A stretch of DNA of 55,829 nucleotides, taken from assembly GCA_036557285.1 (NCBI GenBank), contig DATBHW010000082.1, forward strand, positions 1 to 55,829, in the 5' to 3' direction. The stretch comes from Ktedonobacterales bacterium (GTDB lineage: Bacteria; Chloroflexota; Ktedonobacteria; Ktedonobacterales; DATBGS01). The notes under the pieces were generated by a model. That model saw only the letters and a program-made list of their open reading frames with translations. It was not told where the DNA came from and ran no database searches. The first letter of the stretch is position 1; each line of letters begins with the position of its first letter. This document shows, in pieces, positions 40,350-54,369 of this stretch. A program made the translations under genes and the position numbers.

Positions 40350-41816
40350 TCAGTTGTTTGCGCATGACGCGGGCGGGCCTTGCACCGCAAATTCAATGGT
40401 CTGAGAGAGCTGGTTGTTCCAATAGAGTTCGGCTTTGCCCATCCCACTCGTAGGATAGCACAGGGCGAAGCGGCCATTGAAGGGGCCAGCCTTGGGGAAT
40501 TTCTGCTGGGTATTGAGCGTGTTGTTGGTGGTCACGGCGCTGTCGCCTTGATACCAGATCACCGAGATGACATCGTTGGCCTTCGCGTTCTTCACTTTCC
40601 ACAGGACATTGACGTTCTGGCCTGTCTGGAACGTTCTGGTCGGATTGATGGGATCAAAGCTGCTGCTGTAGTGCAGCGCCGTAGTGACGTTTGTAATGGC
40701 CTTGGCAGCCGGGTTGTCAGAGGGAGTCGCCTGCGGTGTGCCAGTAAGCGCGGGCACCGGGGTCTGCTGGAAGGAGGGAGGGCGCGCTGCGAGCGGTGAG
40801 GAGCCTAAGATGCGCTCGGCCAGCCCGCTGTGGACCCCCAGGAAGGCCAGCCCACCGACGACAGCCATCAAGACCAGGGCAAGGCTGATCGTTCCGCTGA
40901 TAACCCGGTAGCGGCTGAGCCGATAGGGGCGGCGCGGGCGTGTGGCGGGAATAAAGGCGGGCGCCTTGCGGCCAGGGGCAAGCTGATAGAGCATGGAATC
41001 GTCCATCATAGGGAATGCCATGCTGTTCTGCATGCCCATTGGCGCGGGTAAATTGGTGGAACTACCGCCCTCTACATCTAGTTCGCCGTATTCGGCAGAC
41101 TGATTCCAGGATCGGCGTCCGCCCTGGTAGGGAACTGGCAGCATGGAACCGGAGCGGAAGCGCCCTGATGCCTGGGGGGGCATGTCTTCTTCCTGCTCGT
41201 CGTTCTGATAGCCATCCTGCTCGTCGTATTCGGCTTCGTCCATCTGATGCGAGAAGCCGCTGCCTCCAGTCGCGCCTTGATTGCGCCACTTCCAGGATGT
41301 GGAAGTATTACCTGCCTCGCTGCCTGGGTTTCGGCTGAGCATGCCGCTGTTGCGACCAGGATTGCTCAGTGGGCCGCTGGTTCGGCCCGGCGGTGGCGGG
41401 GTGGGGGCCGTTGCGCGCTGCCATAAGGACGATGAAAGGCTGCCCGACTTGCGCCCGGGCGGCATCGTCCCAGGCGGGGGCGTCAGCGGGCCTGAGAGGC
41501 GGCTGCCAGAGGTGGATCTGGGAGGAATGGAACTGGAGGGCGATTCATTGCCCCAGTCGGGGTTGGATTGTCCTTGCCCTGATGTCAGCGGCCCACTGGT
41601 CCGGCCTGGGAACTGGCGGGAATTGCCTATACCTGATGCTCCTGGTGAGATGCCAGGTAGCTGCCCCGTTTGATAACGCTGTTTCCATTGGCGCAGCGAT
41701 GTGCCGCTTCCTGCGCGTTTTCCCCCGGCAGAGGCCGGAGCATCCGCTCCACAAGAAGGGCAGGGGTCGGCGCTGGCTGGACGCAGTATACCGCACTCAG
41801 GACATTGGATACGCAT
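40350..41816 (-). CDS. zinc-ribbon, single-pass membrane protein with GRxSGxL repeats
   Basis: A 488-residue protein I cannot assign. The N-terminus is a zinc ribbon (CPEC at 5-8, CPSC at 19-22). A low-complexity Ser/Pro/Gly region holds repeated short motifs: GRTSGPL (71-77), SRLSGPL (105-111), GRKSGSL (121-127), GRTSGPL (144-150) and GRNSGML (154-160). A single membrane segment lies at about 307-328, followed by a linker and a beta-rich C-terminal domain of about 120 residues (FQTGQNVNVLWKVKNAKAND and following) that may be outside the cell. AGGAGG lies before the ATG. It is divergent from the LPxWL operon, and both carry SGPL motifs. Confidence 0.8.
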   Translation of the reverse strand: MRIQCPECGILRPASADPCPSCGADAPASAGGKRAGSGTSLRQWKQRYQTGQLPGISPGASGIGNSRQFPGRTSGPLTSGQGQSNPDWGNESPSSSIPPRSTSGSRLSGPLTPPPGTMPPGRKSGSLSSSLWQRATAPTPPPPGRTSGPLSNPGRNSGMLSRNPGSEAGNTSTSWKWRNQGATGGSGFSHQMDEAEYDEQDGYQNDEQEEDMPPQASGRFRSGSMLPVPYQGGRRSWNQSAEYGELDVEGGSSTNLPAPMGMQNSMAFPMMDDSMLYQLAPGRKAPAFIPATRPRRPYRLSRYRVISGTISLALVLMAVVGGLAFLGVHSGLAERILGSSPLAARPPSFQQTPVPALTGTPQATPSDNPAAKAITNVTTALHYSSSFDPINPTRTFQTGQNVNVLWKVKNAKANDVISVIWYQGDSAVTTNNTLNTQQKFPKAGPFNGRFALCYPTSGMGKAELYWNNQLSQTIEFAVQGPPASCANN

Positions 41817-42161: not shown

Positions 42162-42287
42162 AGAGCACGCGCAATCTGAGCGGGGCCGTTACCCAGGCTT
42201 CTCTGCCCGGCTGAACGACGAGAGTATGCGGGGGTGGGGTGTTTGATCCGCCTCTCGATTTTAGGAGAGCGAAAGTGAGGAGCGCTC

Positions 42288-45200
42288 GTGACCACTTGTA
42301 ATCGTTGTGGTAGTGTGCTGCCGGCAACGGCAACTGTCTGCCACCACTGTGGCACTCCGGTGATGAATATCGTGCCTGGAAGTAGCGCCGCTGGATCAAT
42401 GGGAGCGCGCCAACGCGCCCAGGAGAAGCGGGATTCTTCTCTGCTGCCACCACTGCCCGGCCCACTTTCCGGGTTTCCGCCCCCTCCATCATCTGGTCCT
42501 GCCAATCCGAACCAGCCATCCTGGCCGTTCAATTCGGGGCCATCAGTTCCCCCCTCCAATTGGCGGGCGCCTTCTTTGATTGACCCCGCGCAGCTTCCTG
42601 ACTGGTTGAATCCTTCAATGCCGGGGCCTGCTCCGCGTGGGGGGCGGGGAGGTGGGCGCTTTCCACGACCATCAGGCAATGCGCCCAGAGACGCCTGGCC
42701 GGGCGCTGCTGCGCCCGGCGCGCCAAGCCAGCCAACTTCGCCCAGGTCGCCGACCTCTGGTCCCTCACCCTATCTTGCTGGTGGCAGGCGCGCGACAGAT
42801 GACCTGTTTTCCTCCTCTTCACTCCTCGATCAAGGGCAGTTGCCAGATTGGCTCTCGCAGCGCCCGCCTCGGACGCCTCGGCCTGCCGCGCCCCCGCCGG
42901 GAGGCAGCGGCCCGGCCTCTCTCAGTGGGCCGCGAGCCAATCCTGGCCGTGGGCAGGACTCTGGACACGATGCGCATCTCCCCGATTGGCTGCGCGCTAT
43001 GGACCCTGGAGCGCCGCCTGATCTGAGTCACTTGAACACCGGGGCTTTACGCTCCGGGAGAAGATTTCCGGCAGGCTCTTACCGCCCGCCAACGCCTGAT
43101 AGGCGCGACCCTTCCGGCGGCTCCGCCCCAGGAACAGACCCTTTTAGCGTCAGCCGTGTGGATGCCGCTTTGCCCCCGCTGGAGGGATTTGACTTTGGCG
43201 GCAGCGCGCGCCAGCCCAATACCGGGAACCAGAACCCGTTTGCGCCCCGTTCGCCTTTTGACCAGCAGCCCAGGCACACTGATCCCTTCCCAGGAATGCA
43301 GCGGAGCCAGGGTTTTCCTCCAGCGGGCGCGCAACGGGCTGGCGAGGCAGGAGCGCCGGAGGCATGGCGTTCCGAAGGTGGTCAGCCTGCTTCTCCCTTC
43401 GCCCAGCCTGCCGGTGGCCTTTCCGCTGGCTCGTTGGTGGATAAAGATGCGCTGCCAGAGTGGCTGCGCCGGGCGGACCAGGGCGGAGACGCGCCCGCCA
43501 GCCCATCACCGTCGAATCCCCAGGCTGCCGCGCGCCCGGCCACGAGCGATTCCTCCTCTCTGGCTCCGTCACCGTCCTCACCTTTTGATGGCGCGTCGCT
43601 GATTGATGAGTCATCGCTTCCCGATTGGCTGCGCAGCAGGGGCGAGACGGAGCCGCTGCCCCTGCCATTCACGGTTTCAGATTCAGTGAGGGCCGGAAAT
43701 ATCGGCGCTGAACGTGGTAGGAAACAATCAGCCGCCGCTTCTGATGAAGGCGCAGCCGATGATGAGGCGCTGCCAGAGTGGCTTCAGCAGGTGTATGCCG
43801 ATGCCAATGTGCCGCCGCTTTATGCAGAAGGGGCGTCGGCTGGCTCTGGCCCGCCGAAGCTCTCAGGTTCGGATCTGCTTGATAAACGCTCTATACCTAC
43901 CTGGATTCAGGAAGCGACTCAGACATCGCCGCTTCCCAGTATCGGGGATATACTCTCGTCCCCTCCACTTGCTGCCCAGCCAGAGGCGCGCGCCAGCCTG
44001 GGATTCGAGCAAGCGCCATTTTCGTCAGCCAGCGGAGGCGCTGCTGAGCCGATTTCGGGGAATTCGCTGATTGATGAAGCGCATTTGCCCGAGTGGCTGC
44101 GTGATCTGGACGATGGAGGGGCGCCCGCGACGGCAAAAGACGTGTTCTCCCCTGCATTTGAGGGCGGGGCAGACCGCGAAGGCGGCGCGTCGGGGGCTTT
44201 TTCAGCGGCGGAACTGGTGGATACGCAGGCGCTGCCCACCTGGCTCAAGGACCAGGGGCCGCAGTTGGGGTCAGAGATGACCGCCGGAGCGATGGAGCCG
44301 CCTGACGAGCCAGGCGGCGCTTCAGAGGGCTTTTCAGCGGCGGAACTGGTGGATACATACGCTTTACCTGCCTGGCTGAAGAATCAGGAGCCGCAGCGGC
44401 TGTCAGATCAGTTCCCTGGACCAGATCAAGCCGGTCCATCGGGGGGCGGCTCCGGCCTGTTCTCAGCGGCAGAATTAGTGGATACGCAGGCGCTGCCTAC
44501 CTGGTTGAAGGATCAGGAACCTACGTTGGGTTCTGGCATGGCCTCTGACTCGCCTGGGCAGGACGCGCCCCTGGGCGGCGCGTCGGGGGCTTTTTCAGCG
44601 GCAGAACTGGTGGATACGCAGGCGCTGCCCACCTGGCTCAAGGCGCAGGAACCGGGCGCGAGTCAGTCCCCAGGAGCTTCGGCAGCGCCGTCGGCTCCAG
44701 AGATGCGCCCGCCAAGCTCGAAGATCACCCCTATCCCTGCTGGATTTTCCAAACAGCAGACGGGCGAGTTTTCTGCCATTGATCTGGTGGATACTGGCGC
44801 ATTGCCTGTCTGGCTGAAAGGCGCTGAAAACGCTGGCGCGGGCGTCAGCGGTCCTGGCGCGCCTGCTGGCTTTGGGCCTGATACCGGGCGCCCGGCCTTC
44901 GGAGGCCCTTCCTCATCCGACCCATCCTCAGATCAGACGGGCGGTTTTTCTGCCGCCAGCCTGATTGACTCTGACGCGCTGCCCGACTGGCTGCGACCAG
45001 CCCAGAGCGGCGCGCTCCCTCCCCACCCGGAGATGAGCGCGGGTGGGTCTGAGGCGGATTGGAGTCGTGGCGATCCTGACGAGGGTGGCTTTTCGGCGGC
45101 GTCGCTGATCAATCCCAGCGATCTCCCGGAATGGATGCGCAGCCAGGAAGGCGTTCAGCGGCCTGGCTCTCAGCCGATGGAAGGCGGCCAGGAAGAGGGG

Positions 45201-45842
45201 CCGCAGGCGCGCGTGCCTCGTCGCCCACGCCTGCCAACCGAGCCAGATCGCGCTCCCAGTCAGGCAGCGGCCAGTGTCTTCTCGTCGGTGCTTGGTCCTA
45301 CTGCTGGCGAAGATCAACGAAGCCAGCCCCAGGGCAGGCGCCCTTCGCGCGAGATGCCAGCGGTAGATAGAAGCGGCCCCCTGGGTCAGCGCAGTGGCCC
45401 GCTCCAGGGGCAGGAGTGGGGAGGCGGCGAGATGGGCGGTTGGAATCAGCCGCCGATGTCGGGCTATCCCAACCAGCCACAGAGCGCCTTTGCGGGTGAA
45501 CAGGAGTGGGGAGGCGATCAGAGCGGCGGCCCGCGCGCTGCTGGCAGTTGGCCGGGTGGTTTTGAGGGGAGAGGGGTGGCCGAGGCTCCGCGAGAGTACA
45601 GAGAACCTGGCTCTGGCATCACCGGGGGCCGCGAACAGGCTCCCTCTGGTGGGCGCGGGTATGGGGATTACCCTGGAGGCCCGCAGGGGCGCGGAGCGCC
45701 ACAGAACTACGGGTATCGCCCAGAAGATGAAGGCTGGGAGGGCGGTCCAGGGTATGAGCAGGGCTATGAGGATGATGAGGTCGGACCGCCGAGTGGGATG
45801 TTTGCAAAGCTAAAGCGAATGCTGGGATTTGGCGGCTCATGA
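42288..45842 (+). CDS. 1184-residue zinc-ribbon scaffold with fifteen LPxWL motifs
   Basis: I do not recognise a described family. A zinc ribbon opens the protein (C4, C7, C18, C21). The rest is a disordered Pro/Ser/Gly/Ala-rich chain with fifteen short motifs of type [S/E]-L-[IV]-D-x3-[LI]-P-x-W-[LIM]. The LPxWL cores are at about 103, 185, 231, 389, 444, 495, 536, 600, 649, 693, 736, 780, 839, 898 and 946, mostly 41-64 residues apart. Residues 640-790 hold four nearly identical FSAAELVDTQALPTWLKDQ blocks. DRSGPL and QRSGPL (1027-1039) echo the divergent gene. The tail, SGMFAKLKRMLGFGGS, is a basic amphipathic helix that could touch the membrane. The start is a GTG with GAGGAG 5 nt before. 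Its stop overlaps the next gene's start. Confidence 0.85.
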   Translation: MTTCNRCGSVLPATATVCHHCGTPVMNIVPGSSAAGSMGARQRAQEKRDSSLLPPLPGPLSGFPPPPSSGPANPNQPSWPFNSGPSVPPSNWRAPSLIDPAQLPDWLNPSMPGPAPRGGRGGGRFPRPSGNAPRDAWPGAAAPGAPSQPTSPRSPTSGPSPYLAGGRRATDDLFSSSSLLDQGQLPDWLSQRPPRTPRPAAPPPGGSGPASLSGPRANPGRGQDSGHDAHLPDWLRAMDPGAPPDLSHLNTGALRSGRRFPAGSYRPPTPDRRDPSGGSAPGTDPFSVSRVDAALPPLEGFDFGGSARQPNTGNQNPFAPRSPFDQQPRHTDPFPGMQRSQGFPPAGAQRAGEAGAPEAWRSEGGQPASPFAQPAGGLSAGSLVDKDALPEWLRRADQGGDAPASPSPSNPQAAARPATSDSSSLAPSPSSPFDGASLIDESSLPDWLRSRGETEPLPLPFTVSDSVRAGNIGAERGRKQSAAASDEGAADDEALPEWLQQVYADANVPPLYAEGASAGSGPPKLSGSDLLDKRSIPTWIQEATQTSPLPSIGDILSSPPLAAQPEARASLGFEQAPFSSASGGAAEPISGNSLIDEAHLPEWLRDLDDGGAPATAKDVFSPAFEGGADREGGASGAFSAAELVDTQALPTWLKDQGPQLGSEMTAGAMEPPDEPGGASEGFSAAELVDTYALPAWLKNQEPQRLSDQFPGPDQAGPSGGGSGLFSAAELVDTQALPTWLKDQEPTLGSGMASDSPGQDAPLGGASGAFSAAELVDTQALPTWLKAQEPGASQSPGASAAPSAPEMRPPSSKITPIPAGFSKQQTGEFSAIDLVDTGALPVWLKGAENAGAGVSGPGAPAGFGPDTGRPAFGGPSSSDPSSDQTGGFSAASLIDSDALPDWLRPAQSGALPPHPEMSAGGSEADWSRGDPDEGGFSAASLINPSDLPEWMRSQEGVQRPGSQPMEGGQEEGPQARVPRRPRLPTEPDRAPSQAAASVFSSVLGPTAGEDQRSQPQGRRPSREMPAVDRSGPLGQRSGPLQGQEWGGGEMGGWNQPPMSGYPNQPQSAFAGEQEWGGDQSGGPRAAGSWPGGFEGRGVAEAPREYREPGSGITGGREQAPSGGRGYGDYPGGPQGRGAPQNYGYRPEDEGWEGGPGYEQGYEDDEVGPPSGMFAKLKRMLGFGGS

Positions 45843-47770
45843 GCATCCAATCATCGGAACAGAGAGTCAGAAAACCGCCCGCGCCTGGCGGCCAGTCCGT
45901 GTTGAGCGCCGCCCTTGGCGTTCGAGGGGCTGTTTCGCGTTCGATTCTCGCGGCTGACTGCGGCTCGGTGTTTACCAAAGTGGCGCTGCTGGGAGTGGTC
46001 GAAGGGCAATATCGCTTGCTGGCGCGCGCGGAGACGCCAACAACTGCTTTTCCCCCCTACCGTGATATTACCGTTGGTTTGTTGCAGGCCATCTATGAAC
46101 TGGAACGCATCACTGGCCGCAGAATCGCCAGCCGGGGCCAGATCATCACCCCGGAGCAAACCGATGGCGATGGCGTGGATGCCTTTGTCGTGGCGCTCAG
46201 CGCCGGTGGCCCGCTGACGGTGGCGATGATTGCCTCAGTTTCCACCAGCGCGCGCGGCGCGGTAAGCAAAGATGAGCAGGCGCTGGCCGAAACCGCCCAA
46301 CAGGCGGTTGCTGGCGTCTACGCGGATGTGGAGCTTGTGCAGCTTCCCCCTGCGGAGCGCGCCAGCTCTGGTCTCAACGGTGGCCCGGATTTGCAGTGGC
46401 TCTTGCAGGTCGAGCAGCTTCGCCGCCTGAATCCCCGCGCTATCCTGCTGGCAGAGTCGGGCGCGGCGCGCGGACAGGGTATCTCTTCGGCAACCGCCCA
46501 GGCGCTGGCGCTGGCCTTGAAAGAGGTATTGAGCGCGCAAAGCGAGAACCCCAATGTTCCGGGCGTCTCTTTCGCGCATGCCACCGCCAAAATCCCTGTC
46601 CTGCACCCGATGGAGCGCATGCCGGTCATTTACACCGGCAGCCCGCAGCACTATGAGCGCCTGCGCCGGGAACTGGGGCCGCAGGCCGATGTACGCCAGG
46701 CAGAGCCGTTTACGCCGCACAACCTGCGCCCGCTCGGCGTGGCGGTCAGTTCGCTGCACGAGCGCCAGATCCTCAGTTCCATTCCAGGGTATCATCGCCT
46801 TAACGGCTGGATGTCTTCGCCGCCGATGGCGACGGCCACTTCATTCAGCAGCCTGGTTCGCTTTCTGGCGCAGCATTATGGCATGAATGTCGTGGGGGTT
46901 GACGTGGGGGCCAGCGCCACCTCGGTGATGGTTGCGGGCGAACACGGCGAGTTCTTGCCATCGGTGCATGCCAACGCGGGCGTGGCTTCGGGACTGGGCG
47001 TGGTGCTGCGCTCGGTGGGCTATGAGCGTATCGCGCGCTGGCTGACGTTTGAGATCAGCGAGGCGGAACTGCGTCAGTTTGTGCTGGAAAAGATGATTCA
47101 ACCCCGCTTGCTGCCCTATACCGCGCGCGAGTTGGAGATCGAGCATGCTCTGACCCGCGAGGCCGTCTTCCTGGCGCTGCAACAGCCCGGCGCAGAACTG
47201 GGTACGCTGCCCCATCTGGACCTGATCCTGGGGGCAGGTGGTGTGCTGGCGCATGTGCCTCGCTATGGGCAGGCCGCGCTGATGCTGCTCGATACCATTC
47301 AGCCGCGCAGCGTCTCTTCGCTGGTGCTGGATACCGTCGCGCTGGCTCCGCAGCTTGGGGTCGTGGCGACGGTGGACCCGGTGGCCGCCGTACAGGCGAC
47401 AGAAAACGATGCCGTGTTGCAGCGGCTGGGTACAGTCGTATCGCCCTTTGGCAAGGCCGAAGATGGGGAACCGGCACTGAAATTGCAGGTGGACTATATG
47501 GATGGCCGCAAGAAAACGTTGGAAGTGGCCTACGGCTCCATCGAGGTCGTTCCCCTGGCGGCAAATGAGCAGGCTATGCTTACCCTCTTTCCGGCCCGTA
47601 CCATTGATGTTGGTCTGGGACCAGGCGAGCAGGCTCGTGCTGGTGAAGCCATCGAGGGCGGCATCATTGGGCTGATTATTGATGCGCGTGGTCGGCCTCT
47701 CTCGTTGTCTCCTCAGCCTGCCTATCGCCGGGCAAAATTAGCCCAGTGGAGGCAGGCAATCGGAGGCTGA
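45839..47770 (+). CDS. MutL-family ASKHA ATPase (annotated elsewhere as glutamate mutase L)
   Basis: A 643-residue protein. Two ASKHA phosphate-binding segments are visible, AADCGSVFTKVALLG (38-52) and VVGVDVGASATSVMVA (351-366), each with the D-x-G-(S/A) pattern. The N-terminal 30 residues are disordered. MutL proteins were named for a link to cobalamin-dependent glutamate mutase, as reactivase-type chaperones. No mutase subunit is nearby, so the name is unlikely to describe its job. It overlaps the preceding scaffold gene by ATGA, giving strong coupling. A role as an actin-like partner of the scaffold, as in PilM/FtsA systems, is speculation. Confidence 0.8.
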   Translation: MSIQSSEQRVRKPPAPGGQSVLSAALGVRGAVSRSILAADCGSVFTKVALLGVVEGQYRLLARAETPTTAFPPYRDITVGLLQAIYELERITGRRIASRGQIITPEQTDGDGVDAFVVALSAGGPLTVAMIASVSTSARGAVSKDEQALAETAQQAVAGVYADVELVQLPPAERASSGLNGGPDLQWLLQVEQLRRLNPRAILLAESGAARGQGISSATAQALALALKEVLSAQSENPNVPGVSFAHATAKIPVLHPMERMPVIYTGSPQHYERLRRELGPQADVRQAEPFTPHNLRPLGVAVSSLHERQILSSIPGYHRLNGWMSSPPMATATSFSSLVRFLAQHYGMNVVGVDVGASATSVMVAGEHGEFLPSVHANAGVASGLGVVLRSVGYERIARWLTFEISEAELRQFVLEKMIQPRLLPYTARELEIEHALTREAVFLALQQPGAELGTLPHLDLILGAGGVLAHVPRYGQAALMLLDTIQPRSVSSLVLDTVALAPQLGVVATVDPVAAVQATENDAVLQRLGTVVSPFGKAEDGEPALKLQVDYMDGRKKTLEVAYGSIEVVPLAANEQAMLTLFPARTIDVGLGPGEQARAGEAIEGGIIGLIIDARGRPLSLSPQPAYRRAKLAQWRQAIGG

Positions 47771-47808
47771 ACCCCAACGATGGCACGCGCGCAGGCGGAG
47801 GAGAGCGA

Positions 47809-48735
47809 ATGAACTACCCCCTTGGATGGCCGGTTATTCCAGGGATTACGGTGCGGCGCGAGCGGCGCATGGACCGCCCCGGATTGACGCTGGTGGAAGT
47901 CGGCCAGGAAGTCCAGGCCGACCAGACGATTGCTCGCCTGAATCCGGTAGGTACGGCGGGCAGCGCGCCGTTTGCTCCTCACCGATTTGGCGCTCAGACG
48001 CTCCGCGCTGGTCTGCGTGGGCAGGTGTTGGAGGCCAACGCGCGCGGCGTCACCATCGAGGGGCTGGTAGCGGTGGTACAGGGGTTGATCGGGGTAGGTG
48101 AACAGGCCGTCGGTGAGTTGAATATTCTCTCGAAAGAGGCGCTGAAAGTGCCTGCGGACATGATTCCCCTGACGCGCGGTGTCATTCTGGTGGCGCCAGG
48201 ACCGCTGACACGCGATCTGCTGGAACACGCGACCAAAGCCGAGGTCGTCGGGCTGGTGGCAAGCAGCATGGCAGTTGCGGACCTGGAGGCCGCGCTGGGG
48301 CTGGACCTGACCGCTTTGCTGGATGGCCTGCCAGTGCCTGAGAGTCCACGCCCGCTGCCGACGCTGCTCTTTACTGAAGGGCTGGGCAGCCATCCGATGG
48401 CAAGCTCGACGCTGGCGCTGCTGCGCCAGCATGGCGGCGACTATGCTCTGCTGAGCGGGACAACAAATCCACGTCGCAACCGTCGCCCTGAGCTATTGAT
48501 TTCGCTGCCGCCAGGGGCGCGCCCGCCTGCGGTGAAGGCCGACCCACGCATTATGAACAACGCTATTGTCCGGGTGAGCAGCGGTGAATACGCGGGGGAG
48601 ATCGGCCAGGTTGTGCAAACGTTTCAGCGCCCCCAACTGCTCCCCTCTGGGGTTCACGCGCGGGCCGTTTACGTGCGCCTGGAACGAGGGGTGAAAGTCA
48701 CGCTGCCCATTTATAATCTGGAACGCATCTCATAG
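47809..48735 (+). CDS. barrel/KOW-like protein of unknown function
   Basis: A 308-residue protein. The N-terminal PLGWPVIPGITVRRERR and LTLVEVGQEVQADQTIARL resemble lipoyl/biotinyl-like beta barrels, and a second VTIEGLVAVV...VGEQAV segment repeats the pattern. The C-terminal VRVSSGEYAGEIGQVVQTF is KOW-like. The middle has two Rossmann-like strands (GVILVAPGPLTRDLL). The ATG is supported by GGAGGAGAG. It begins 38 bp after the MutL-like stop. It may serve as an adaptor or membrane-fusion-like domain, but the evidence is weak. Confidence 0.6.
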   Translation: MNYPLGWPVIPGITVRRERRMDRPGLTLVEVGQEVQADQTIARLNPVGTAGSAPFAPHRFGAQTLRAGLRGQVLEANARGVTIEGLVAVVQGLIGVGEQAVGELNILSKEALKVPADMIPLTRGVILVAPGPLTRDLLEHATKAEVVGLVASSMAVADLEAALGLDLTALLDGLPVPESPRPLPTLLFTEGLGSHPMASSTLALLRQHGGDYALLSGTTNPRRNRRPELLISLPPGARPPAVKADPRIMNNAIVRVSSGEYAGEIGQVVQTFQRPQLLPSGVHARAVYVRLERGVKVTLPIYNLERIS

Positions 48736-48790: not shown

Positions 48791-49552
48791 GTGGAACGCT
48801 ACGGTGAACACCATTTCCCAGGGCGGCTGTTTGTCGTTGAGGGGGTGGATGGGTCGGGCAAAAGCACGCAAATTGCCCTCCTGCGCCAGTGGCTGGTGAG
48901 CGAGGGCTACCCCGTCTTCTTTAGCGAGTGGAACTCTTCGCCGCTCGTCCAGCGCACCACCAGGCGCGGCAAGAAAAAGCAACTGCTGACCCCCACTACC
49001 TTTAGTCTGCTGCACGCCACCGACTTCGCTGATCGCACCGAACAGGAGATTATCCCGCCGCTGAAAGCGGGCGCGATTGTGCTGGCCGACCGCTATATTT
49101 ATACGGCGTTTGCCCGCGATGTGGCGCGCGGCGTGCATCCGCAGTGGGTGCGCCATCTCTATCAATTTGCCGTGAAGCCAACTATCGCCTTTTATTTTCG
49201 CGTCCCGCTGGATGAATCGCTCAAGCGGATTTTAGGCAGCCGGGCGGAACTCAAATATTATGAAGCGGGGATGGACCTGAACCTCTCAACGGACCCCACC
49301 CGAAGCTTTAAGATGTTCCAGAAACGCATTGTCACCGAATATGAAAAAATGGTTGATGAGTTTGGCCTGACGGTTCTGGATGCCTTGCAGCCCATCACCG
49401 AGCAGCAACTGCACATCCGCGACATGGTGCGGCCCTTCCTGCGTGGCCTGCATCGTGACCGCCAGAATCATGCAGGCCGGTGGCAGATGGGCGCTGCTGC
49501 CAACGGCGGCGAGAGTGTCGGGCGCAAGCGCAAAACGGAGCAGCTTCTATGA
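48791..49552 (+). CDS. thymidylate kinase-like protein, paralogue 1
   Basis: A 253-residue protein of the thymidylate kinase fold. The P-loop is EGVDGSGKSTQ (17-27) with Lys24, and the DR(Y) motif is LADRYIYT. The usual enzyme (about 210 residues) phosphorylates dTMP to dTDP. This one adds about 35 residues at the C-terminus (basic, GRKRKTEQLL). The lid-type Arg-rich segment is unlike the classic enzyme. It may have a non-housekeeping role. The start is a GTG with GGAGG before it. Its stop overlaps the next gene by ATGA. Confidence 0.8.
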   Translation: MERYGEHHFPGRLFVVEGVDGSGKSTQIALLRQWLVSEGYPVFFSEWNSSPLVQRTTRRGKKKQLLTPTTFSLLHATDFADRTEQEIIPPLKAGAIVLADRYIYTAFARDVARGVHPQWVRHLYQFAVKPTIAFYFRVPLDESLKRILGSRAELKYYEAGMDLNLSTDPTRSFKMFQKRIVTEYEKMVDEFGLTVLDALQPITEQQLHIRDMVRPFLRGLHRDRQNHAGRWQMGAAANGGESVGRKRKTEQLL

Positions 49553-50244
49553 CGCAGGTGGCTTTCTATGGCATTGATACCGTGCGCGTGCGCTCGGAAG
49601 AGGGGCTGCTCCCCGGCAGGCTCTTTGCCATCGAGGGAACAGATGGCGTCGGACGTTCGACGCAGATTCAGCACCTGCGCACCTGGCTGGAGAGCAGCGG
49701 CTACGCGGTGATTGATACCGGCCAGCGCCGCTCTGCGCTGGCCGGGCGCGGAATTGATGAGGCCAAGCAAGGCCATACGCTCGGCCCGCTGACGATGGAC
49801 CTCTTCTATGCCACTGATTTTGTGGACCGCTTTGAGAATCAGATCCTGCCTGCCTTGCGCGCCGGTTTTATTGTGCTAACGGACCGCTATATCTATTCGC
49901 TGATGGCGCGGGCCATCGTGCGCGGGGCCGACCGCGAGTGGGTGAAGCAGGTGTATGGGCTGGCCTTGAGGCCCGACGCCATTTTTTACCTGGATATTGA
50001 CCTGGACCCGCTGATCCGGCGTATCCTGCGGCGGGGGCGCTTCGATTATTGGGAGTCGGGCATGGATATGCGCCTGGGGCCGGACCTGTATGAAAGCTTC
50101 ATCATCTATCAGGGGATGATACTCACAGAGTTTCGGCAGATGGCGCCTGAATATAGCTTCCAGGTGATTGACGCCATGCGCCCGATCCCCAGGGTTCTGG
50201 CCGACATCCAGGCGCGCATGGAGCCGCTGCTCCCCGCCGGATAA
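49549..50244 (+). CDS. thymidylate kinase-like protein, paralogue 2, with altered P-loop
   Basis: A 231-residue protein. The P-loop reads EGTDGVGRSTQ (29-39), with Arg36 where nearly all P-loop kinases have Lys. The LTDRYIYS motif is kept. It aligns to paralogue 1 over its whole length (FYATDFVDRFENQILPALRAG matches LLHATDFADRTEQEIIPPLKAG). Loss of the Walker Lys usually abolishes or greatly reduces phosphoryl transfer, so a regulatory or heterodimer role is possible. The ATG overlaps paralogue 1's stop, so the two proteins are probably made in equal amounts. Confidence 0.82.
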   Translation: MTQVAFYGIDTVRVRSEEGLLPGRLFAIEGTDGVGRSTQIQHLRTWLESSGYAVIDTGQRRSALAGRGIDEAKQGHTLGPLTMDLFYATDFVDRFENQILPALRAGFIVLTDRYIYSLMARAIVRGADREWVKQVYGLALRPDAIFYLDIDLDPLIRRILRRGRFDYWESGMDMRLGPDLYESFIIYQGMILTEFRQMAPEYSFQVIDAMRPIPRVLADIQARMEPLLPAG

Positions 50245-50661: not shown

Positions 50662-51291
50662 CTATTCTGCCCGCTTTTCCAGAAAACGCGCCTGGCATTT
50701 GTATGCTTTCTCAAAGAGATCGGCCTTCTGGCGGGCACGATCAAGCTCCACGTCGGCGTGCAAGCCATGCTGCGGGATGATGAAGAAGCGCACAGCGTCT
50801 TGCTCGATCTCGCCGCTGATATATTCCACGCGGCCATCGTGGCCGTAATCGAGCGCGTCGGCAATGCGTATCAATGCAGCAAGCTGGTTCACCCGCTTGC
50901 GCGCCGCTTTATCCAACTGCGCGTACTCCGGGTGGCTCTTTTTGGGCAGGGCGCGGCGGTGATAGCGCGCAATGCAGGCGATCTCGTGGCGCTCCTCCTG
51001 GGAGACATCGGGCAGGGGCGTTTTGCTAATCAGCGCAAATGAATGCTTGTGATGCGCTGTTGGCGAAATGAGCATGCCCGCGTTGTGCAGCAGCGCGCCC
51101 CGCTCCAACAGCAGGGCGGCGCGCTGGTCGAGCGCGTGCAGCGGCTGCGTCGCCTTGAAGAGCATCAGCGACAGCCGGGCAACCTGCCGGGCGTGCGGCC
51201 AGTCTTCGACCTCCAGACCCCCACAGAGCATCGTTTCTTTTGGGGTGGGGTTGGGGCTGAGGTTGCGAGTTGGGTAATGATTGAGCGCCAT
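50662..51291 (-). CDS. HD-domain protein resembling the exopolyphosphatase C-terminal half
   Basis: A 209-residue protein. HARQVARLSLMLFKATQPLH, LLHNAGMLI and IACIARYHRRALPKKSHPEY, then LAALIRIADALDYGH, follow the Ppx/GppA C-terminal HD layout (the classical HD reads HN here). This half normally binds ppGpp or polyphosphate in Ppx. The ATG at 51291 is chosen because GGAAGGCAGGT precedes it. It follows the CHAD gene by 28 bp. A split Ppx, with the N-terminal part in the Ppx-CHAD protein at 52849, is plausible. Confidence 0.8.
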   Translation of the reverse strand: MALNHYPTRNLSPNPTPKETMLCGGLEVEDWPHARQVARLSLMLFKATQPLHALDQRAALLLERGALLHNAGMLISPTAHHKHSFALISKTPLPDVSQEERHEIACIARYHRRALPKKSHPEYAQLDKAARKRVNQLAALIRIADALDYGHDGRVEYISGEIEQDAVRFFIIPQHGLHADVELDRARQKADLFEKAYKCQARFLEKRAE

Positions 51292-51319
51292 ACCTGCCTT
51301 CCCCTTTATCATTTGCTGT

Positions 51320-52117
51320 TTATAGCTGCTGCGCTGGCTTGAGCGCATCATGGGCTGCAACGGGACGAGCCTGGAAGCGGCCTGTTGTCTCGGCCCCCTC
51401 CACGAGATGAAGGATGGCTGCGCGATTTTCGCGCTCTTCCATTTTGTCCCAACGCTTTACAAACTGCCGATAGAGGCTCTCACGTTCGCGCGCTTTGGCG
51501 ATCAAGAAGTGTTCCAGAGCCGCTCGCTGCTCGTCGTTGGGGCGCGCTGGCGAGCGCGCCTCTTCGGCCAGCATGATCGCGCGTTTTCTCCGGCCCATTT
51601 TCGTCTGTTTTCGAGCCTGCTTGTGCGCGTTTGGGCGTTTCTTCGCTGGTGCGTCCTTGCTCTGTTTTCCTTTCTTCCGCTTCCCGGACGACCTGGAGGA
51701 CAAGCCATCCAGGCGCGTCGGCTGACCCAGCGCCTCCAGCAGCGCGGGGGGCAGGTCTTGCGCTTCGGGGACCACCGCAAACAGGGCGGTCTCCTCATCG
51801 GGCGCGAACGAGGCGCTGCGCAGGATGGCGATGAGAACATCGCAATCATGGAGCAGACCCAGCACGTCCTGTACCCCTTTCAAGGCTTTGATACAATCGC
51901 CAGCCTGTTCAGGCAAGAAATCGCGGAAGAGTTCCAGCGTGTAGCGCAGCCGTTTGGCGGCAATACGCATCTGGTGCTGCTCGCGGACCCGGCTCTCGTC
52001 GTGCGCATACTGCGCCCAGACGTAGAGTTCCGCCAGCCGCGCGCGCAAAATGCGCCGAGCATTTTCAGTGACGGTCCCATAGGGCCGAATATGCGCTTGT
52101 ATCCTGGCGTTTGCCAT
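51320..52117 (-). CDS. CHAD-domain polyphosphate-binding protein
   Basis: A 265-residue protein. The CHAD pattern is visible in VREQHQMRIAAKRLRYTLELFRDFLP (His and Arg/Lys-rich helix) and LKGVQDVLGLLHDCDVLI. A very basic insert (KRKKGKQSKDAPAKKRP) lies in the middle. CHAD folds bind polyphosphate with their conserved His and basic residues. Upstream of its start the minus strand carries TATAAT (52206-52211) as a possible -10. It shares an operon with the HD protein. Confidence 0.85.
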   Translation of the reverse strand: MANARIQAHIRPYGTVTENARRILRARLAELYVWAQYAHDESRVREQHQMRIAAKRLRYTLELFRDFLPEQAGDCIKALKGVQDVLGLLHDCDVLIAILRSASFAPDEETALFAVVPEAQDLPPALLEALGQPTRLDGLSSRSSGKRKKGKQSKDAPAKKRPNAHKQARKQTKMGRRKRAIMLAEEARSPARPNDEQRAALEHFLIAKARERESLYRQFVKRWDKMEERENRAAILHLVEGAETTGRFQARPVAAHDALKPAQQL

Positions 52118-52234
52118 CGCTGATCCTTGCTGCGAGATGAACGCAGATTTGGGCGAACAGGGGTGTTTATCCATACTTTCTCGCAGAAGATGCGCCCACC
52201 TTTTATTATACCCCCAATCACTGCGTTCTCAGGA

Positions 52235-52263
52235 TTGACAATAAAGAACATTTGTGCTACTTT
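52235..52263 (+). promoter_or_regulatory. promoter for the DinB-like gene
   Basis: TTGACA at 52235-52240, a 17-bp spacer, and a weak TACTTT at 52258-52263. It points to the start at 52302. It is back-to-back with the CHAD gene promoter. Confidence 0.5.
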
Positions 52264-52301
52264 TGTGGCGAATGATTGGCTGTATAGCTGGAGGTCTGCT
52301 T

Positions 52302-52817
52302 ATGCTGCATCCCCTCGTCCTGCAACTGCGCTTTACGCGCAGCGAGTTTCAACGCGCGCTCGCGGGCCTTACCGATGAGGACGCGCGGCGGCGCGTCATG
52401 CCGATGAATTGCATCAGTTGGAACATTGGGCATCTCGCCTGGCAAGAGCAACGCTACTGGCTCTGGCGCGCCCAGGGGCAGATGCTTTTGCCACACGTCA
52501 ATGATCTGTTTGCCTCTGGCGGACCGGCCAGCACGCCCGCGCTCGATGCAGCCTGGGCGGCCTGGCAGACGATTACTCAGGCCGCCGATCCCTGGCTGGA
52601 TATGCTGACCACTGAAAAACTGCAAGAACACGTGATCATAGATGGTCAGCCCAGCGGCATCACCTTTGGAAACCTGCTTCAGCGCGTCATTTATCATTAT
52701 TGGTATCATACCGGTGAAAACATAGCGATCCGGCAAGTGCTGGGGCATACGTCGCTGCCAGATTTCGTTGGTAATATTGATGACGAGGCCCCGTATCGCC
52801 CGGAGCATCAGGCGTAG
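52302..52817 (+). CDS. DinB-family protein
   Basis: A 171-residue four-helix protein. NIGHLAWQEQRYW (about 42-54) and VIYHYWYHTGENIAIRQVLGH (about 129-149) hold the His residues expected to bind a metal. DinB proteins are stress-linked or thiol S-transferases, and their substrates vary. The ATG at 52302 is supported by GGAGG 8 nt before. It is on the opposite strand to its polyphosphate-module neighbours and is probably unrelated to them. Confidence 0.78.
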   Translation: MLHPLVLQLRFTRSEFQRALAGLTDEDARRRVMPMNCISWNIGHLAWQEQRYWLWRAQGQMLLPHVNDLFASGGPASTPALDAAWAAWQTITQAADPWLDMLTTEKLQEHVIIDGQPSGITFGNLLQRVIYHYWYHTGENIAIRQVLGHTSLPDFVGNIDDEAPYRPEHQA

Positions 52818-52848
52818 CGCGCGCCAGGATGGCGCTGCTGCGCTCAAG

Positions 52849-54369
52849 CTACGATGTGGGGACAGCGCGCGGCGTTTGTCCCTGCAACGCCAGAAAAGCG
52901 GCCTCCATGCCTTCGATTTTCGATTCGCGGAGCTGGCTGCGCAGGTTCTGGAATTGTTCGGCGCGATAGACCCTGACGCGCTCGATGAGCCAGGCGATGC
53001 CTTCGCGCTGGTCGTCGGGCGCGTCGGCCAGGTCGGTGGTCAGCCGCTCCAGCAAGACATCGGTATCGCGCACCTGGCCCAAGGCGCGCAGCAGCCCTTT
53101 CACCTGTTTGTTGAATGCCTGAAAGGGCGCGTGTGGATAGCAGGCGGCAAAGGTATCCAGCGCGGTGCGCAGTCGGCGCGCCGTCACGCGCATATCGTGC
53201 AGTGCTTCCGGGTCTTCGTCGGCCAGTACGGCGGCGCGGAAGGTAATCATCTGCTCGAAACGCTGCGCCAGCGTGTCGTGGCCCACTTCGCGGAAGCTGC
53301 CGGATACCCCCGGCAGTTGCGGGGTGTAGCGCGATGAGAAGCCCAGCGCCCTCATGGTCCGCGTTGTCAGGCTCAGTCTGCCGGTGGGGGCGCTGCCGGT
53401 GCGCAAAGAGGCGCGCAAGCGCCGCTGAAACTCGGACGAGCGCGCATCGGTCAGCCAGTTGTCGCCATAGCGCGCGTAGGAGAGGATGATGCCCTCGCGG
53501 ATACCATGCGGCGTGATCTCCACCTGCACGACACCCAGGCGCAGCATTAGCGCCAGCACGACCATTGCGCCCACGCCCAGCACGCGCGCGCGCTCGACGC
53601 GCAGATCATAGCGCCGGGCAATCGTCTCCGCCGGGCTGGTCTGGAGCAAGAGCAGCGCGTCTTCCAGGTCATCGGGAGTCAGCGAGGTATGGCTGATCTC
53701 GATGTTGCGCGCCCGCTGAATCAGCCGCAGCAGCGCGTTGACTGTGCCGCCCGCGAAGATAAGCTGCTGGGGGCGCGCCGGAATGGCAAGGTGCGCCAGA
53801 TAGGTGTTGAGGAAGTAGTGCAGCGCCGCCAGTTCTGCGCGCTGCGGCGGGTCGGCGGGCGCGTATCGCTCGCGCAGGAACGATCCGCCCAGCGGCAAAG
53901 AGACGCTCCAGGGCATCTGGCCGATTTCGGCAATGAGCAGTTCCAGGCTGCCGCCGCCCAGATCAGCGACGGCAACAGTTGCCGCCAGATTCCGCCCGTG
54001 TGTGGCCCCCAGGAAGGTGAAAGCCGCTTCGTTCATCCCGGAGATGACCTGTACCTCGATCCCGATCCCGCTGCGGATGGCTTCCAGAAACGGTTCGCTG
54101 TTGCGCGCCGCTCGCACAGCCTCTGTAGCGACCACGATCAGCGTTTCGGCGTGAAGCTCCTCGCTGAGCGCCTTGAAGCGGCGCAGCGCCTCCACGCTCT
54201 GCTTCACTCTGGCGTCGGGGATGCGACCGGATGCCGCCACGTCCTGGCCCAGTTGCAGCATTTCCGATTCGTCGCAGAGCAGCGTCAGTTCCTCGCCATC
54301 GGAGGCGCCAACGGCAAGGTGGATGGTGTTGCTGCCAATATCAATTGTTGCAATCGTTTTCTGGCTCAT
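52849..54369 (-). CDS. ppx: Ppx/GppA phosphatase fused to a CHAD domain
   Basis: A 506-residue protein. The Ppx N-terminal ASKHA fold shows ATIDIGSNTIHLAVG (7-21), IVVATEAVRAARN (about 80-92) and VADLGGGSLELLI (about 135-147), followed by LPLGGSFLRERY. A CHAD domain fills residues about 350-500 (HDMRVTARRLRTALDTFAACYP). Ppx removes phosphate from polyphosphate chains or from pppGpp, and the CHAD domain would hold the polyphosphate. The classic Ppx C-terminal HD half is replaced by the CHAD domain. A separate HD gene lies at 50662. Confidence 0.92.
   Translation of the reverse strand: MSQKTIATIDIGSNTIHLAVGASDGEELTLLCDESEMLQLGQDVAASGRIPDARVKQSVEALRRFKALSEELHAETLIVVATEAVRAARNSEPFLEAIRSGIGIEVQVISGMNEAAFTFLGATHGRNLAATVAVADLGGGSLELLIAEIGQMPWSVSLPLGGSFLRERYAPADPPQRAELAALHYFLNTYLAHLAIPARPQQLIFAGGTVNALLRLIQRARNIEISHTSLTPDDLEDALLLLQTSPAETIARRYDLRVERARVLGVGAMVVLALMLRLGVVQVEITPHGIREGIILSYARYGDNWLTDARSSEFQRRLRASLRTGSAPTGRLSLTTRTMRALGFSSRYTPQLPGVSGSFREVGHDTLAQRFEQMITFRAAVLADEDPEALHDMRVTARRLRTALDTFAACYPHAPFQAFNKQVKGLLRALGQVRDTDVLLERLTTDLADAPDDQREGIAWLIERVRVYRAEQFQNLRSQLRESKIEGMEAAFLALQGQTPRAVPTS

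Follow-up and report, generated by a model that had tools for sequence, protein, structure and literature searches.

A conserved LPxWL-motif array protein with a predicted membrane anchor, encoded beside a MutL-family ATPase in the Chloroflexota

Introduction

To what end does a bacterium make a long, largely disordered protein that displays one short hydrophobic motif fifteen times, and which partner would such a motif hold? The question is raised by a locus from a Ktedonobacterales bacterium (Chloroflexota; assembly GCA_036557285.1), lying in a stretch of 55,829 nucleotides (contig DATBHW010000082.1) that was analysed as a whole and is called the window below. A gene on its forward strand (42288..45842) encodes a protein of 1184 residues with an N-terminal four-cysteine (Cys4) zinc ribbon, a disordered chain bearing 15 LPxWL motifs and a C-terminal basic amphipathic helix, which an earlier note had proposed to be a scaffold for a multicopy partner. 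Here we report that this scaffold, together with the ATPase encoded by the next gene, is, as far as comparison of genomes can tell, an undescribed gene system present across much of the Chloroflexota. As the earlier note had supposed, we found no described bacterial family combining a zinc ribbon, an LPxWL array and a membrane anchor in Pfam, NCBIfam, PADLOC or the open-access literature. We call the system new in just this sense, namely that our searches turned up no earlier description of such a layout and that membership tests for the nearest families fail.

Results

The scaffold gene starts with GTG, five nucleotides downstream of a Shine-Dalgarno-like AGGAG (42278..42282, +), which supports the reality of the full open reading frame. 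Its zinc ribbon (CNRC...CHHC; residues 4-25, 42297..42362, +) has its four cysteines between residues 4 and 21 and matches Pfam Zn_Ribbon_1 with an E-value of 2e-4, a score that falls under the curated cut-off. Disorder-promoting residues make up 81% of the protein, and the array of a relative is modelled by AlphaFold2 with a predicted local distance difference test score (pLDDT) below 50, so that the disordered chain and the ribbon of the initial description both stand. Within this chain, the array (42561..45152, +) comprises 15 matches to [LI]PxW[LIM], between residues 103 and 946 (starts at 103, 185, 231, 389, 444, 495, 536, 600, 649, 693, 736, 780, 839, 898 and 946); FSAAELVDTQALPTWLKDQE is a peptide of the LPxWL type. 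In 2000 residue shuffles of the protein the same pattern occurred 0.03 times on average and at most twice. The spacing is 41-64 residues, as the earlier note had put it, apart from two gaps of 82 and 158. That note had further assigned the longer form LVDxxxLPxWL to all fifteen copies; the core is indeed in every one, and the longer form L[VIL]DxxxLPxW in 12, being absent from copies 3 and 6 and replaced by LIN in copy 15. Motif counts vary with the pattern chosen. A pattern scan of the 5.1-Mb window genome found the motif clustered at the scaffold gene only; none of the 30 other matches examined carries the longer motif, and we therefore rejected the existence of a second array elsewhere in this genome.

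Is this array a recent product of repeat expansion? The most alike motif cores are those of copies 9-12 (residues 638 to ~790; 44199..44671, +), which the earlier note had described as four almost identical blocks (residues 640-790) and had taken as a sign that the array is still expanding. The likeness holds for the 20-residue cores, which share 77-92% DNA identity, and is confined to them: the linkers of the same copies share 33-48% and are thus unrelated. Of the 17 codons that these cores share, as many as 8 differ silently, and in the scaffold gene no tandem repeat was detected by Tandem Repeats Finder. Because the linkers are unrelated, silent changes in the cores are many and no tandem repeat was found, the copies are best read from sequence as old, with cores kept by selection, and the proposal of ongoing expansion has to be given up. 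An expansion is seen only relative to members of the same class (15 copies versus 4-11); a fresh array does exist in another lineage, where a 48-bp unit recurs 17.7 times in locus L102 with a 95% match.

Within the class of the window genome, a MutL-family ATPase is present in 45 of 47 genomes. We retrieved 40 same-class ATPase loci and set aside four (L050, L053, L056 and L057) whose contigs break off right before the gene for the ATPase. Each of the 36 with upstream DNA has, directly 5' of that gene, one that encodes the layout of ribbon, array and basic tail; loss of the motifs from relatives that retain the operon, which the earlier note had named among the outcomes that would refute it, was thus encountered in none of them. 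The class arrays have 4-11 motif copies (median 7) at a median spacing of ~50 residues that is maintained across the class, and the C-termini are basic aromatic or amphipathic. The N-terminal Cys4 is found in 32 of the 36, the others being cut by contig ends (L047, L060) or having doubtful starts (L059, L064); in L069 the array is split over two frames. Besides the LPxW core, flanking L, [VI], D and [RK] are strongly favoured. Amino-acid change in the motifs, compared over seven close-relative pairs, is about 2-5 times lower than in the linkers, with silent change at conserved residues being alike in both; because the disparity arises at similar silent change, the motifs are, by this measure, constrained short elements in a free-running disordered chain, as would be expected of a scaffold with functional motifs.

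Further afield, of 350 genomes drawn from the whole of the Chloroflexota, 195 are matched by a profile of the ATPase. We studied 41 loci from outside the class (40 retrieved plus L002), and 27 of them encode, within two genes upstream of the ATPase, a protein in which the motif occurs twice or more, a proportion that is no estimate of frequency, since the loci were picked to spread over families. Motif copies range from 2 to 63 per array. The arrays in 36/36 class loci and 27/41 outside led us to discard the notion that the layout is peculiar to a single genome or arose there recently. The commonest out-of-class gene order is DUF6754 (PF20539), a small membrane protein, the array protein, a membrane protein of 200-300 residues, the ATPase and a KOW protein. 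The DUF6754 membrane proteins, whose genes in most of these loci precede that of the array protein by two positions (e.g., L077:4105-4881, +), are not mentioned in the open-access literature that we found; DUF6754 gave no match in the window genome, but neither did any control, so its absence there is not established.

The comparison across classes also bears on the C-terminal segment of the window protein, MFAKLKRMLGFGGS (45798..45839, +), a basic amphipathic stretch that the earlier note had assigned to the membrane end of the chain. All 27 out-of-class array proteins have a predicted transmembrane (TM) segment ~70-270 residues past the last motif, and all 35 class members as well as the window protein have a basic aromatic tail and no such segment. 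By the positive-inside rule, the array lies on the cytoplasmic side in 25 of the 27. Because TM segments replace the tail in other classes, which is the best evidence for its role, the window helix is strongly backed as a predicted membrane anchor. The anchor thus appears to be conserved as a function and swapped as a structure, predicted TM segments standing on one side and a basic amphipathic tail on the other. The window protein thereby combines the marks of a motif-array scaffold as we use the term: a zinc ribbon, at least two PxWL motifs, a predicted C-terminal anchor and a gene just 5' of that for a MutL-like ATPase.

That ATPase (643 residues; 45839..47770, +) is encoded by a gene whose start overlaps the stop of the scaffold gene (ATGA), an overlap that suggests translational coupling of the two. 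It belongs to the MutL family of ASKHA ATPases (PF13941; E-value 3e-40, 138.8 bits versus a gathering score of 27), as do all 18 rows of the alignment. It does not qualify as a GlmL protein, scoring 19.9 bits against the NCBIfam cut-off of 475; its out-of-class homologues likewise reach 56-95 bits versus GlmL cut-offs of 475-600. We saw no glutamate or ornithine mutase gene among the annotated neighbours of the ATPase gene. None of the 18 rows matches the FtsA or PilM Pfam families at E-values up to 0.1, and a sequence search of the PDB returned no match to the ATPase. Its fold was recognized in the fused model of a relative, for which Foldseek retrieved PilM (5eq6, E-value 9e-6) and FtsA (4a2b, 2e-5); the fold is equally like Hsp70 and glycerol kinases, and carboxylases and hydantoinases are matched too.

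The fused model takes advantage of six class loci in which the scaffold and ATPase genes share a frame with one stop between them. The natural read-through product of L045 (1114 residues) was modelled with AlphaFold2 from an alignment of 24 rows, only six of which cover the array; the zinc ribbon (pLDDT ~89) and the ATPase (~90) are folded and the array is disordered. In some families (L080, L085 and L104) the ATPase itself bears PxWL motifs, on a C-terminal extension whose tail is basic and aromatic. These and other Chloroflexia-like ATPases have a C-terminal extension ending in KRGFFRRK-type sequences, with which self-recruitment or self-inhibition is possible. Two ATPases of family f2 (L055, 1969-209, -; L056, 443-2167, +) have the phosphate-2 DVG changed to NVG or SVG and may not hydrolyse ATP.

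The third gene of the conserved unit (47746..48735, +) overlaps the ATPase gene and encodes a protein of 329 residues with a barrel-sandwich-like domain and a C-terminal KOW domain, as judged from Pfam, modelling and conservation. The model is well folded (pLDDT 84.7), and a fold search with it gave partial KOW and PA-like matches and none overall. The KOW gene follows the ATPase gene in most class loci. A homologue exists in 13 of 14 genomes tested, unlinked from the ATPase gene where arrays are largest; some of the unlinked genes (L186-L189) lie near response-regulator-like or F1Fo ATP synthase genes.

The motif also occurs on another protein. In four families, a TPR protein encoded elsewhere in the genome has 7-17 PxWL motifs in a disordered tail (L191-L195), and in two class genomes it has 2-3 (L202, L203); L190 (1775-3, -) encodes the same type of TPR protein with a PxWL-bearing disordered tail. 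The window genome and several Chloroflexia-like genomes have TPR homologues devoid of PxWL. The tail of the L198 homologue repeats LxPFSLEELGLSPEEIAQLEG where others have PxWL.

The other window neighbours do not accompany the scaffold/ATPase pair in class relatives. Two overlapping thymidylate-kinase-fold genes (48791-49552 and 49480-50244, +), whose products score 79.4 and 74.9 bits versus an NCBIfam dTMP kinase cut-off of 83.25 and have weak PADLOC PDC-M51B matches, had been put forward in the earlier note as kinase-like partners from the operon; they are not near the pair in relatives, and this candidacy was dropped. Nor are RuvB and the remaining window neighbours conserved beside it. The product of a divergent neighbour (40350-41816, -) is distinct from the scaffold: it has a zinc ribbon of its own at the N-terminus, repeats tetrapeptides of the SGPL/SGSL type and probably contains a TM segment. 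Downstream, genes for an HD/Ppx-GppA-domain III protein, a CHAD-like protein and a Ppx-CHAD protein (50662-54369, -) suggest a polyphosphate cluster.

Discussion

Which protein, then, would bind the motif? In our preferred reading, to which we give a probability of about 0.45, the array protein is a cytoplasmic, membrane-tethered multivalent scaffold that clusters a partner, most likely the MutL-family ATPase. The C-terminus, an amphipathic helix here and TM segments elsewhere, would tether the chain to the inner face of the membrane, with the zinc ribbon capping the opposite end. The disordered string of LPxW(L/M)(R/K) peptides would offer near-identical docking sites, through which many copies of the partner might be concentrated at the membrane. 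The partner would be the actin/Hsp70-fold ATPase of the overlapping next gene, capturing peptides in the manner of PilM with PilN and FtsA with FtsN, and its ATP state could switch binding or assembly. Our data show the layout, its conservation, the constraint on the motifs, the linkage to the ATPase and a predicted membrane topology; that the motifs dock, on which partner, and that this partner is clustered we infer. A precedent, though not a proof, is the cleft between the IA and IC subdomains of FtsA and PilM, which takes up short peptides from the cytoplasmic parts of membrane proteins (PMC7613929). There too, an ASKHA protein is paired with one that is anchored in the membrane and has short peptides in the cytoplasm, and both FtsA and PilM were among the many ASKHA proteins matched by Foldseek. 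Unlike PilM and FtsA, however, the ATPase described here has no sequence match to either family, and its scaffold would present 2-63 LPxWL peptides rather than one.

By linkage, the ATPase is the best candidate receptor, favoured because of the association of its gene with the arrays and because the dependence appears to run one way. No clustered motifs were found in 19 sampled genomes that lack the ATPase, using a degenerate pattern that recovers about half of the array motifs of G208 and one of three in G328 as positive controls, so that small arrays could escape it. Conversely, ATPase and KOW genes occur without an adjoining array in one clade (families f11, f21, f49 and f69), and the same partly sensitive pattern revealed no motif cluster elsewhere in seven of its genomes. 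To judge by this distribution, the array appears to need an ATPase-bearing genome and is not essential to the ATPase or the KOW protein, as both persist without it. The PxWL motifs on the ATPase itself in some families, and the overlap of the two genes, also speak for the preferred reading. Three observations weigh against the ATPase as the receptor: it does without an array in this clade; the same motif on the separately encoded TPR protein leaves room for a receptor other than the ATPase; and in the L045 model the motifs have pLDDT values of ~30-45 and no confident docking, a result obtained from a shallow alignment and one chain whose linkers are long, and hence a weak test of docking rather than a sign that it does not occur.

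The last two of these also speak for the alternative that survives best, though we regard it as unlikely, in which the logic of the scaffold is the same but LPxWL is received by something else, be it a TPR protein, a divisome-like hub or some further protein, and the ATPase is recruited by other contacts. The PxWL tails of the TPR proteins imply a receptor common to two scaffolds; yet the array still adjoins the ATPase gene in genomes whose TPR homologue has no PxWL, the window genome included, and array clusters were not seen in the sampled genomes without the ATPase. That two scaffolds bear the same motif suggests a single receptor for both, be it the ATPase or another protein. The KOW protein is a less likely candidate for sole receptor: where arrays are largest, its gene is present but not linked.

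A more improbable alternative does away with a folded receptor and has the motifs act as stickers, binding each other or the membrane and driving a condensate. Their aromatic character, repetition and even spacing in a disordered chain would suit such a role; the preferred flanking residues, however, give the motif more specificity than stickers need, and the surrounding 25-mers carry a negative net charge (mean -1.8 to -4.1), which suits them ill to acidic membranes.

There is very little, to our minds, to recommend the motif as a mimic of the FtsZ C-terminal peptide (DIPAFLR) that brings a division protein, FtsA for instance, to the membrane. The tails of FtsZ1 from these genomes are indeed DIPAFLRKR-like (IEIPAFLRRR in the window genome) and share with the array a short core, [IL]Px(F/W)L[RK]. 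However, Phe is kept in FtsZ and Trp in the arrays, and the scaffold, with its tandem array on a non-tubulin carrier at a separate locus, does not have [IL]PxF[LI][RK] at the end of an FtsZ. Canonical FtsA and FtsZ are encoded together elsewhere in the genome and the genes flanking the array are not division genes; a replacement of FtsA was also set aside, as the canonical ftsA (G000:C11:47650-48765) lies beside ftsZ, apart from the scaffold locus. We give slightly less credence still to the ATPase as a GlmL-like reactivase of a B12-dependent mutase, with the scaffold holding the enzyme pair, since the ATPase shares a Pfam sequence family and the ASKHA fold with the GlmL/MutL accessory ATPases (PF13941, NF040745, NF040744) but lies far under their cut-offs, has an extra C-terminal beta-rich domain, is paired with a motif-array scaffold and a KOW protein, and has no mutase among its annotated neighbours.

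The idea of a multivalent short-linear-motif scaffold, with a disordered chain, repeated constrained motifs and an anchor, is itself already known in general terms. The range of 2 to 63 copies fits a tuning of valency. A broader and more tentative proposal, which we hold somewhat less firmly than the preferred reading on which it builds, is of a phylum-wide system in which the ATPase would be clustered on a tethered string of up to 63 peptides, the valency would be evolving, and the TPR protein would be a second scaffold on the same receptor. If true, this would give the Chloroflexota, about whose cell biology little is known, a conserved membrane machine. One docking peptide presented at 2 to 63 copies on related scaffolds would form a natural series in which the effect of valency is directly measurable, and there would be a function to seek for a large group of proteins now filed merely as 'MutL protein' and DUF6754.

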